Part shown: piece after piece, positions 3,015 through 64,000 of the stretch
Numbering within the stretch: the first letter of the stretch is position 1
Layout: the number at the start of each line of letters is the position of its first letter
Virus record (IMG/VR): IMGVR_UViG_3300023110_001422
Span: 33,866 to 97,865 of that record
Reading direction: 5' to 3' (one strand)
DNA: 64,000 nt
Source: a virus
Program-made: the position numbers and the translations under genes
Notes under the pieces: model-generated
Told to the model about the DNA's origin: nothing
The model's input: only the letters and a program-made list of their open reading frames with translations
Database searches by the model: none

Positions 3015-3915
3015 ATTTTGCAATATCCTCTGCTAGTTGTTTTTGTATATGTCTATCAACATGACAGTTATCTGGAAACTTATCACTTTTATTCATTAGG
3101 TCAATAACAACTTCGTAATCTTCAACAATGCTTCTAAATTCTGTTTCTATACCTTCTGGAATATCCGGAATGTTTAGTTCAGGTCGTTGTCTAGCAAACA
3201 TACGTAATGCATCTGCCGCATTTTCTGTTAGGTCGGGTCTACGTCTACGTACATTTTCTGCTGTACCCCAAGAACTAATTAACGGAACCGGACGTTCTAT
3301 AATACTATCCATCCATCCGCGATGAACGTGTTTAATAAAAGTGTATTGTGAAATATCTTCTGGTAATTTTCCCCAGCCTTCAATTACTAACCATGGAATA
3401 TTAGTTTCTTCATAAATTTTTTGTGCGCCGTCTAGTGCAATTTTAAGCAGGCCGTCATTTATTTCTTTAATTGACTTTGCTTCTGCTACTAGCGGATCAC
3501 TTTGTTTATGATACTTCTCTAAATCATACAAGCCTGCTTCATCTGGCCATAAACTTCTTTTTAAATCTCTACAAGGCTCTGTTAGCATCCATATAATTAA
3601 ATCAGGATTATAAAAAACAGGACTTGTAAAGCAAGGTGCTAATCCTAGTGCTTCTTCAACTTTAAAAATACTTTCGAAATTTCCTGCTCCGCCAAAAGCA
3701 TAGTTAACTGTACAATGACCCATTTGATCTAAATGATAACCAAAGCCTGGCCAAACAACTTGAAAAGGTTTAGGAAAATCACCGCTTAAATATTTTTCTT
3801 TATTCCAAGGACGAAACACTTCTGGATCGTTGTTGTTAGCACACCCCGGCCCAGGAATAATTGTTCCCCACTCACCTAGTGCATTGCTATCACCAACTAT
3901 TAAAATTTTTTTCAT
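3007..3915 (-). CDS. SGNH/GDSL-hydrolase-like protein
   Basis: A 302-aa protein with the blocks of SGNH hydrolases: GDSN at residues 8-11 with Ser10 as nucleophile, a glycine-asparagine block (FGGAGN) and a C-terminal DxxH (Asp282, His285 in DNCH) completing the catalytic set. Such enzymes remove or transfer acyl groups, for example O-acetyl groups on polysaccharides. Immediate neighbours are a nucleotide-sugar dehydrogenase (ATGA overlap) and a glycosyltransferase-like gene, so a glycan substrate is likely. No signal peptide is seen, so it would act in the cytoplasm or be packaged. A second, more divergent SGNH-like gene lies at 6391. The fold is fairly secure; the substrate is inferred. Confidence 0.7.
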   Translation of the reverse strand: MKKILIVGDSNALGEWGTIIPGPGCANNNDPEVFRPWNKEKYLSGDFPKPFQVVWPGFGYHLDQMGHCTVNYAFGGAGNFESIFKVEEALGLAPCFTSPVFYNPDLIIWMLTEPCRDLKRSLWPDEAGLYDLEKYHKQSDPLVAEAKSIKEINDGLLKIALDGAQKIYEETNIPWLVIEGWGKLPEDISQYTFIKHVHRGWMDSIIERPVPLISSWGTAENVRRRRPDLTENAADALRMFARQRPELNIPDIPEGIETEFRSIVEDYEVVIDLMNKSDKFPDNCHVDRHIQKQLAEDIAKYV

Positions 3916-62434: not shown

Positions 62435-63601
62435 ATGTCAGAACTACTAGAAAGTCGCTGGCAGGATACCAAAACTGCACTTTTAGAAGGCCTAAATGGT
62501 AACAAAAAGGCTGTAATGGCAAGTACTCTAGAAAACACACGCAAGTGGTTGAATGAGACTGCAACAGCAGGTGCTACAAGTGCCGGTAATGTCGCAACTC
62601 TAAACAGAGTTATCCTACCAGTAATCAGAAGGGTTATGCCTACTGTGATCGCAAACGAATTGGTTGGTGTACAACCAATGACTGGTCCAGTTGGTCAGAT
62701 CCACACATTAAGAGTACGTTACGCAGATTCATCTGATGGTAACGAAGTTGGTGAAGAAGCATTATCACCGTTCAAGATCGCGGCGGCCTATTCAGGTAAC
62801 GCTACAGATGCTACTCCAGCAGGTTCCGCTACTGCGGCACTTGAAGGTGCGGCTGGTAAGCGTATGTCGATTCAAATCTTGAAACAAACTGTCGAAGCGA
62901 AAACTCGTAAGTTGAGTGCTCGTTGGACGTTTGAAGCGGCTCAAGATGCTCAAGCACAGCAAGGTATCGATATTGAGGCTGAAATTATGGCGGCTTTAGC
63001 ACAAGAAATTACTGCTGAAATCGACCAAGAAGTTCTTGCTTCATTACGTGCATTGGCTGGTACGCAAAACCAACAGTCATATGACCAAACAGCGGTATCA
63101 GGTACTGCAACATTCGTAGGTGACGAACACGCGGCTTTGGCTGTGATGATCAACCGTGTTGCTAACACTATCGCTCAGCGTACACGTAGAGGCGCTGGTA
63201 ACTACGCAGTAGTTTCACCACACGCTTTAACTGTTCTTCAATCAGCAACAACTTCAGCGTTCGCAAGAACAACTGAAGGTACTTTTGAAGCACCAACAAA
63301 CACTAAAATGGTTGGTACTTTGAATGGTGCTATGAAGATTTACGTTGATTCATATGCAAACGACAGTACTTCAGTACTAGTTGGCTACAAAGGTTCATCT
63401 GAGTCAGATGCTCCAGCATTCTACTGCCCATACATTCCTTTAATGTCAAGCGGTGTTGTGCTAGATCCGGCTTCATTCGAGCCAGTAGTTTCGTTCATGA
63501 CTAGATACGGTTATGTTGAGTTATCAAACACAGCATCATCTCTAGGTAATGCGGCAGACTACTTAGGTACAGTTGCTATTAGCAACGTTACTTTCTCGTA
63601 A
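62435..63601 (+). CDS. 23: Major capsid protein gp23, short form
   Basis: A 388-aa HK97-fold capsid protein. Diagnostic parts are NRVILPVIRRVMPTVIANEL, MTGPVGQIHTLRVRY, the conserved TRKLSARWTFEAAQDAQA, and AFYCPYIPLM near the end with VVSFMTRYGYVE. T4 gp23 is 521 aa, so this lacks most of the insertion domain. A likely gp21 cut site is L39-N40-E41 just before TATAGATSAG, which would remove 41 residues. AAGGAG precedes the ATG. A strong terminator follows. Confidence 0.95.
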   Translation: MSELLESRWQDTKTALLEGLNGNKKAVMASTLENTRKWLNETATAGATSAGNVATLNRVILPVIRRVMPTVIANELVGVQPMTGPVGQIHTLRVRYADSSDGNEVGEEALSPFKIAAAYSGNATDATPAGSATAALEGAAGKRMSIQILKQTVEAKTRKLSARWTFEAAQDAQAQQGIDIEAEIMAALAQEITAEIDQEVLASLRALAGTQNQQSYDQTAVSGTATFVGDEHAALAVMINRVANTIAQRTRRGAGNYAVVSPHALTVLQSATTSAFARTTEGTFEAPTNTKMVGTLNGAMKIYVDSYANDSTSVLVGYKGSSESDAPAFYCPYIPLMSSGVVLDPASFEPVVSFMTRYGYVELSNTASSLGNAADYLGTVAISNVTFS

Positions 63602-63626: not shown

Positions 63627-63657
63627 AAAAGGGCGGACTTAGGTTCGCCCTTTTTTT
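63627..63657 (+). terminator. Intrinsic terminator after gp23
   Basis: AAAAGGGCG and CGCCCTTTT form a 9-bp stem around a 10-base loop, followed by a run of T. It lies 25 bases after the gp23 stop and closes the head operon. Confidence 0.92.
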
Positions 63658-63701
63658 ATGACTCCAATTTCTATATTTTGGTAAACTTACTACTTGCTTT
63701 T

Positions 63702-63730
63702 TTCACAAACATTTGTTATATTAGTATTAT
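63702..63730 (+). promoter_or_regulatory. Sigma70-type promoter of the gene-free 3' region
   Basis: TTCACA (63702-63707), 17-base spacer, TATTAT (63725-63730), one mismatch in each box. Start would be near 63737. It stands after the gp23 terminator, so it drives only what follows. Confidence 0.65.
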
Positions 63731-63736
63731 AAGTTG

Positions 63737-63988
63737 CAAAGGATTTAGCGGTCCGATGTATATAGTGCAAGGAAGAGGCCTTTACCAGAGGGTCGAACTT
63801 GACGGCTTAGGGGTGGTACCCAGGCATGGTTGCAGAAATGCGTTGTGTCACATTGCTCTACCGAGCGGAAGTCGGTTCCTGGGATTCAGATAGGTATCTG
63901 CGTCGAAGGGTTGTAGGTGTAACCAAGTCCTACCTATTTTGCTTATGCCTAAAAGAGGTTTATTCGGGAGACTGGATAAACCTTTTTT
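63737..63988 (+). ncRNA. Candidate stand-alone structured small RNA, about 250 nt
   Basis: This stretch lies between its own sigma70-type promoter and an intrinsic terminator and holds no credible ORF. Pairing: CCCAGG (63819-63824) with CCTGGG (63878-63883) closes a domain with a GCA-GAAA-TGC hairpin (63832-63841) and ACCGA/TCGGT (63860-63876). After it come CAGAT/ATCTG (63887-63900) and GTAGG/CCTAC (63913-63933). No motif of tRNA, tmRNA, 6S, RNase P, SRP or a riboswitch known to me was found. It could act as an antisense or protein-binding RNA during infection. The RNA call rests on promoter, structure and terminator together. Confidence 0.6.
63957..63988 (+). terminator. Intrinsic terminator of the small RNA
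   Basis: GGTTTATTC (63957-63965) pairs with GGATAAACC (63974-63982) around an 8-base loop, with TTTTTT after. Upstream A residues could extend the stem with the T run. Confidence 0.88.
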
Positions 63989-64000
63989 AATGACTAAATA

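Follow-up and report, generated by a model that had tools for sequence, protein, structure and literature searches.

The locus considered here belongs to an uncultured marine T4-like virus and lies at the right edge of a window of 64,000 nucleotides, the whole stretch of DNA that was analysed, which comprises bases 33866-97865 of the 97,865-base IMG/VR record IMGVR_UViG_3300023110_001422 and ends where the contig ends. Behind gp23 and its terminator, on the same strand, lie a promoter-like site, about 215 nt of structured non-coding RNA, an intrinsic terminator and the putative core of a late promoter, with the following features:

62435..63601, + strand: gp23, T4-type major head protein, the upstream neighbour (PHROG 138 major head protein, E 2e-102)
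63627..63658 (about), + strand: gp23 terminator hairpin, AAAAGGGCGGACTTAGGTTCGCCC followed by T7 (sequence; also a low STnc320 match)
63694..63722, + strand: putative sigma70-type promoter TTGCTT-17-TATATT, in the register conserved in relatives (sequence; relatives)
63729..63733, + strand: presumed transcript start (about +1) and 5' strand of helix P0, AUAAG (P0 from permutations and covariation)
63735..63760, + strand: 5' hairpin between P0 and P1, the first hairpin of the Rfam manA model (Rfam alignment; alignment A1)
63746..63943, + strand: manA-homologous RNA domain, RF01745 model positions 1-192 (44.7 bits, E 1.9e-10, cut-off 55.2)
63762..63765, + strand: 5' strand of P1, AUAG, pairing with 63934-63937 (helices 2-3 of the covariation test)
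63934..63937, + strand: 3' strand of P1, CUAU (helices 2-3 of the covariation test)
63942..63946, + strand: 3' strand of P0, CUUAU (permutation and covariation tests)
63956..63988, + strand: intrinsic terminator with a 12-pair stem, GAGA loop and T6 (terminator script; sequence)
63994..64000, + strand: TAAATA-type core of a putative T4-type late promoter for the next gene (sequence; relatives; contig end)

An earlier note on this DNA had described a promoter-RNA-terminator unit without a gene, 3' of gp23, and the parts were found where it had placed them, with strong covariation in relatives. The hexamers of the promoter it had read, TTCACA-17-TATTAT, are present at 63702-63730. The register conserved in relatives is TTGCTT-17-TATATT, which lies 8 nt further 5' and overlaps that pair, since most relatives carry TTGAC(A/T)-16/17-TATATT there, the commonest promoter among them. 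The terminator hairpin at 63956-63983 runs into T6 at 63983-63988; terminator and T run agree with the previous reading, whereas the stem, given there as 9 bp, was counted as 12 pairs.

The sequence beyond the contig end can be read from L153, a stretch of a 184,930-base relative that equals the window at 3236 of 3237 positions. There the terminator is followed by CTAAATA, by an ORF of 66 residues about 120 nt on, 3' of the late-promoter core, and by more ORFs. From a reading of its sequence, the 66-residue product is presumably a cold-shock-like protein.

Homology and structure of the RNA

Within the window, no Rfam family reached its gathering cut-off. When cmscan was run with an E-value threshold, the manA model, RF01745, matched the RNA along the full model length, with an E-value of 1.1e-11 against the whole virus record, at a score of 44.7 bits that lies below the curated cut-off of 55.2. 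Aligned relatives score above that cut-off, among them Mosig (64.0 bits), the record of L008 (75.4 bits) and L138 (75.6 bits). In the reverse direction, a covariance model built from 47 homologues including the window (R1) recovered five (L230-L234) out of eight cyanophage manA RNAs with E-values from 3e-10 to 7e-7, and L235 less clearly, with an E-value of 0.025; L228 (P-HM1) and L229 (P-SSM4), two of the best-scoring RF01745 members, were not listed in R1 searches of the cyanophage stretches and whole records. Because homology is significant both ways and the score falls under the gathering cut-off, the window RNA is a divergent homologue of manA RNA, not a formal member of the family by score.

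This revises the earlier note, which knew of no described RNA that matched and proposed a candidate new phage small RNA, and which had named a covariance search against Rfam as the check and a match to a known RNA as evidence to the contrary; RF01745 is such a match (E 1.9e-10), albeit below its gathering cut-off, and the reverse search is also significant. New is the anatomy of the RNA unit, an arrangement outside the published manA description, the RNA family itself being already known. Other Rfam matches at the window scored far under their own cut-offs, and the better ones (STnc320, MicX and similar) fall on the hairpin of the gp23 terminator.

The order of helices is that of manA RNA: a 5' hairpin, P1, a two-part P2, P3 with three hairpins, and two 3' hairpins. 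Besides its sub-cut-off score, the window RNA differs from manA RNA in having an extra closing helix, P0, and its own terminator, and in not being a 5' leader; manA RNA is typed by Rfam as cis-regulatory and is a marine and cyanophage candidate riboswitch.

Taken singly, the window sequence gives weak statistics, with a folding z-score of -1.81 (6 of 200 shuffles fold as well), two promoter-like sites near the RNA compared with 4.4 expected in shuffles, and two terminator-like sites compared with 2.0, in a scan that omitted the terminator at 63956-63988. The contention that the parts are jointly hard to explain by chance thus failed on the single sequence and held in comparative tests against controls. 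Alignment A1 retained 47 of 108 full-length RNAs by k-mer similarity, L041 and L050 being excluded, and RNAalifold found 44 pairs in it, 32 of which carry compensatory changes. Once P0 and a tentative pseudoknot are included, 38 of 53 pairs are changed on both sides and 93.8% of cells pair across the 47 homologues; the helices of the RF01745 consensus secondary structure recur in the same order. None of 500 shuffles reached the observed pairing and covariation, and sliding the pairing partners by 1-3 columns lowered pairing to 33-54%; the stems, whose conservation in relatives had been proposed as a check, are therefore conserved.

P0 joins the 5' and 3' ends of the RNA and is absent from the Rfam manA model as displayed; examples are AUAAGC/GCUUAU, AAUACC/GGUAUU and AAUGC/GCAUU. 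In a permutation test on 62 unique flank pairs out of 107 loci (among the matches listed, tmRNA-linked loci excluded), helices between 5' and 3' flanks scored 15.1 on average, against 13.7 (sd 0.28) with flanks swapped, and none of 300 permutations scored as high. In A1, aligned by column, 78.1% of P0 cells paired and all five pairs showed changes on both sides. For the candidate pseudoknot, in which GGUA of one loop would pair with UACC of another, 82.4% of cells are paired, with failure of two of the four pairs in 15 of 47 sequences.

The unit in window-type relatives

Loci were gathered by sequence-pattern scans, and the proportions given here describe these samples, not the ocean. The window-type pattern returned at least 119 stretches, repeat fetches of the same contigs being dropped. 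Among the matches listed, 83 of 120 loci including the window have gp23 no more than 1.3 kb upstream, 30 have other upstream sequence and 7 too little. At least 80 loci were found by gp23 alone, 64 of them with at least 300 nt behind gp23, and the RNA is present in 25 of these 64 (among the matches listed), 96-986 nt downstream of gp23.

A promoter-like site occupies the expected place in 91 of 97 unique window-type loci among the matches listed, compared with 10 of 905 random stretches. The promoter patterns had been loosened after inspection of loci missed earlier, and the controls were run with the same loosened patterns; before loosening, a promoter was found in 114 of 125 window-type and 77 of 115 cyanophage-type loci (among the matches listed). 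Terminators within 100 nt of the RNA were found in 62 of 88 unique window-type loci, against 9 of 400 controls, and their distance from the RNA is nearly constant despite 39 distinct stems (both among the matches listed). The remaining 26 of the 88 listed loci are without a terminator, including the convergent loci L177, L182 and L202. Past the position of the terminator, the next 80 nt contain TAAATA at 55 of 78 window-type loci (among the matches listed), versus 37 of 700 control stretches; the T4 late promoter is given as TATAAAT in the available part of PMC9004378.

The genes that follow are diverse. Clustering the first downstream ORFs of 100 loci, which were not de-duplicated, gave 26 clusters, and in 20 of these at least one member has 100 aa or more (among the matches listed). 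The downstream gene is convergent at nine of the listed loci, seven of them distinct (L107/L171, L151, L177/L202, L182, L117, L178 and L200). It encodes a class II tRNA synthetase in L202, which is identical to L177, and in the related L182, the script finding no terminator in any of these three; a carbamoyltransferase in L117; a baseplate hub protein in L200; and a tail protein in L178. Of the convergent genes searched, those of L202, L117, L200 and L178 have Pfam or PHROG matches, and that of L151, which goes with L107/L171, gave no PHROG match. L117 carries a window-type RNA with its own promoter and terminator, tRNA genes for Gly, Thr and Leu upstream, one for Trp downstream, and the convergent carbamoyltransferase gene.

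Copy number was assessed with R1, because RF01745 misses divergent copies: only 26 of 50 records were found by RF01745, many of the misses having pattern-proven RNAs, and L137, one such miss, scores 60.5 bits in another search. R1 gave exactly one strong match per record in 29 virus records of 42-268 kb with window-type RNAs; a second match in one of them (14 bits, E 0.009) was taken for chance. Among cultured carriers, R1 gave one match each in Mosig and in five of eight others, with no match in the remaining three. Searches with RF01745 found at most one match per record, and in a search that found 13 records two of the matches were weak (E 0.03 and 0.097).

Cyanophage-type copies and cultured carriers

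A search of 14 records of cultured marine T4-like phages located RF01745 in nine, those of P-HM1, P-SSM2, P-SSM4, S-SSM5, P-RSM4, S-SSM7, S-CREM1, ACG-2014f and Mosig, and did not find it in S-SM2, Syn9, S-PM2, S-RSM4 and Melnitz. The manA RNA lies 60-67 nt behind gp23 in P-HM1, P-RSM4 and S-SSM5, the same place as that of the window RNA. In S-CREM1 and ACG-2014f a tRNA gene adjoins it on each side with a spacing of 0-1 nt, and in S-SSM7 it ends where tRNA-Gly starts. The other neighbours are pstS, behind which it lies in P-SSM4, regA and purL, between which it lies in P-SSM2, and rubrerythrin, before which it lies in Mosig, so that its placement is leader-like in Mosig (rubrerythrin) and P-SSM2 (purL). 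In the metagenome contigs L147, L137 and L114, the RNA starts 2, 4 and 10 nt behind tmRNA.

Two cyanophage-pattern scans returned at least 120 and 21 loci, at least 141 in all, of which 115 were used and 26 excluded as incomplete or lacking further manA features. A tRNA neighbour was found in 5 of 106 first-scan loci (among the matches listed) and in 9 of 9 second-scan loci, a share biased by derivation of the second pattern from tRNA-embedded RNAs. Listed matches of a 16-base cyanophage pattern in genome contigs fell in many unrelated phyla and look like chance.

Where no tRNA gene adjoins the RNA, a promoter-like site stands immediately 5' of it in 85 of 93 unique loci (among the matches listed; control 12 of 862), and a terminator was found within 100 nt in 13 of 94 (among the matches listed; control 14 of 429). 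These terminator-poor copies resemble leaders, like those of Mosig and P-SSM2. The 105 first downstream ORFs among the matches listed form 40 clusters, 19 with a member of at least 100 aa. The two leading clusters we take, from reading the sequences, to be gp32-like (23) and transaldolase-like (11).

Judged by eye, the promoter's -35 element in cyanophage-type copies is often found within a hairpin loop, and this hairpin, which has a T run, resembles the terminator of the upstream gene. In L228, L230, L231 and L232 the terminator-like hairpin of the upstream gene, 5' of the manA RNA, has TTGACA in or at its loop, and it seems to double as the -35 of the RNA promoter.

RNA gene, leader or other explanation

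The promoter-like site, structure, terminator, homology, single strong copy per record and varying neighbours are all supported at the level of sequence. One copy per genome, varied neighbours, convergent genes, terminators and tRNA or tmRNA borders favour an RNA gene over a riboswitch, since a riboswitch would be expected to retain a set of target genes. The reading preferred here, with a probability of about 0.56, is that the non-coding RNA has a free-standing gene, is homologous to manA RNA and presumably acts in trans. The results suggest that what has been taken for a gene switch is an RNA in its own right, in many viruses at least. The available parts of four papers that treat manA (PMC2864571, PMC9964418, PMC7779021 and PMC7657543) contain no description of it as a stand-alone RNA gene. 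The S-CREM1 record annotates manA RNA between tRNA genes, and its authors, in the part of their account available, discuss manA as cis-regulatory.

Under the RNA-gene reading, host RNA polymerase with its housekeeping sigma factor would transcribe the RNA from a promoter of its own, probably at an early stage of infection, which the host-type promoter makes plausible. Transcription would halt at the RNA's own intrinsic terminator, giving a transcript of about 260 nt with a terminator tail and a compact fold whose ends are held by P0, and the next gene would be read separately from the late promoter. The RNA, probably stable as well as structured, would then act in trans, and its binding partner early in infection would most likely be an RNA-binding factor or a ribonucleoprotein of host or phage. 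It is probably excised from tRNA or tmRNA transcripts in certain other phages, and leader-like copies may be terminator-less RNA genes whose 3' end comes from processing.

A wider proposal, offered tentatively and at somewhat less than even odds, is that the manA family as a whole, in marine T4-like viruses, is not a riboswitch class but a phage RNA gene that acts in trans, occurs in single copy and has an early host-type promoter, forming a unit behind gp23 or lying inside tRNA or tmRNA transcripts and standing upstream of metabolic genes only incidentally. If so, a family filed since 2010 as cis-regulatory needs re-typing as an RNA gene, and the search for a ligand gives way to a search for a protein or RNA partner. 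As cultured carriers exist, among them phages that infect Prochlorococcus or Synechococcus, the question of an RNA gene is directly testable.

The nearest analogues in kind would be ROOL and GOLLD, which the available part of PMC12286853 describes as phage-encoded structured non-coding RNAs, often near tRNA islands. Some relatives of the window RNA likewise lie among tRNA genes, whereas no tRNA genes were seen at the window copy, and GOLLD often exceeds 800 nt, compared with about 260 nt for the window RNA; the ROOL and GOLLD models of Rfam had no match at the window up to E 10. Melnitz offers a likeness in position, with a glutamine riboswitch (glnA), a small structured RNA, directly behind the phage ssrA (tmRNA), the place held by manA RNA in L114, L137 and L147, although glnA belongs to another RNA family, which Rfam lists among riboswitch aptamers.

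A riboswitch or other cis-regulatory leader, in which ligand binding would control the terminator and hence the gene behind, appears unlikely, at odds well short of even. Weinberg and colleagues, in the available part of PMC2864571, scored manA 'Y Y y' for RNA, cis-regulatory and riboswitch in 2010, their proposal of cis-regulation resting on leader-like copies. Among the matches listed, such copies are common, a terminator being absent from 81 of 94 cyanophage-type copies and a same-strand ORF starting within about 100 nt at 69 of 91 loci without a tRNA neighbour. A gene with a mannose-6-phosphate isomerase domain also lies behind the RNA in L100, beyond a terminator. The short ORF after the RNA in L284 reads similarly, and we take it to encode the same kind of enzyme.

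The window RNA itself does not occupy the 5' UTR position implied by the cis-regulatory typing of RF01745, the terminator at 63956-63988 intervening. Across 51 unique RNA/terminator pairs, no expression platform was found that would exclude the terminator when the aptamer folds, and pairing between RNA and terminator gave no antiterminator signal (13 of 60 permutations equalled or exceeded the observed mean); in the window, P0 and the terminator are separate and do not overlap. An antiterminator or attenuator was rejected on this absence of pairing beyond that of swapped pairs. The seven distinct listed loci with convergent downstream genes, the tRNA or tmRNA genes that border the RNA at 0-10 nt in some phages, and one strong copy per record before 26 and 40 downstream clusters (among the matches listed, some short ORFs of which may be spurious) are likewise unlike a one-ligand regulon.

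Distinctly improbable is a general 5' module that shields phage early mRNAs from decay or aids their translation, its terminated copies being secondary. The many unrelated genes behind cyanophage-type copies and the promoter-like site directly upstream of 85 of the 93 listed would suit such a module, but the window-type RNAs, mostly terminated, retain compensated structure and conserved loops, the terminator keeps its nearly constant place among the 39 distinct stems listed, and tRNA-embedded copies have no mRNA directly behind them.

A short protein-coding gene is very improbable, although annotated hypothetical proteins in GenBank overlap the manA RNA in P-SSM4 (PSSM4_169.1), S-SSM5 (SSSM5_127), P-HM1 (PHM1_121) and S-SSM7 (SSSM7_180); these are probably spurious ORFs. 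No conserved ORF was found in the window-type RNAs, any one of the six frames being open throughout in at most 2 of 77 unique RNAs. Of 47 aligned rows, 9 have ATG at the place of the ATG that the window has at 63826, the lengths from P1 to P1' are spread evenly across frames (14, 16 and 17 modulo 3), and compensatory changes run throughout the RNA. A short ORF as explanation of the unit was rejected on the absent frame conservation, and the statement of the earlier note that the unit holds no gene stands, with no frame, start or length conserved in relatives. A functionless chance assembly of promoter, stems and terminator, which the weak single-sequence statistics might suggest, has a negligible probability, being refuted by covariation (0 of 500 shuffles) and opposed by the promoter and terminator counts against controls.

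Several other elements were found around these RNA genes or leaders. A 23-residue PqqA-like peptide lies between gp23 and the RNA in L110 and L133 (NCBIfam TIGR02107, 45.5 and 47 bits, cut-off 20) and, as a putative pyrroloquinoline quinone precursor, is possibly an unusual auxiliary metabolic gene. A glutamine riboswitch (RF01739, 51.3 bits, L190:3960-4007) precedes a small ORF between gp23 and the manA-type RNA of L190, and leaders resembling it by eye occur in L097, L110, L126, L140, L154 and L176. Freshwater-2 RNA (RF02980) lies downstream of the manA-type RNA in L153 (6434-6518, 71.6 bits), near the start of an ORF reading like a virion protein, and in L190 (4425-4507, 74.7 bits). The tRNA genes of S-CREM1 are also interspersed with an abiF RNA (RF03085, 52.2 bits, L215:2532-2568) and a wcaG RNA (RF01761, 92.7 bits, L215:1746-1843).
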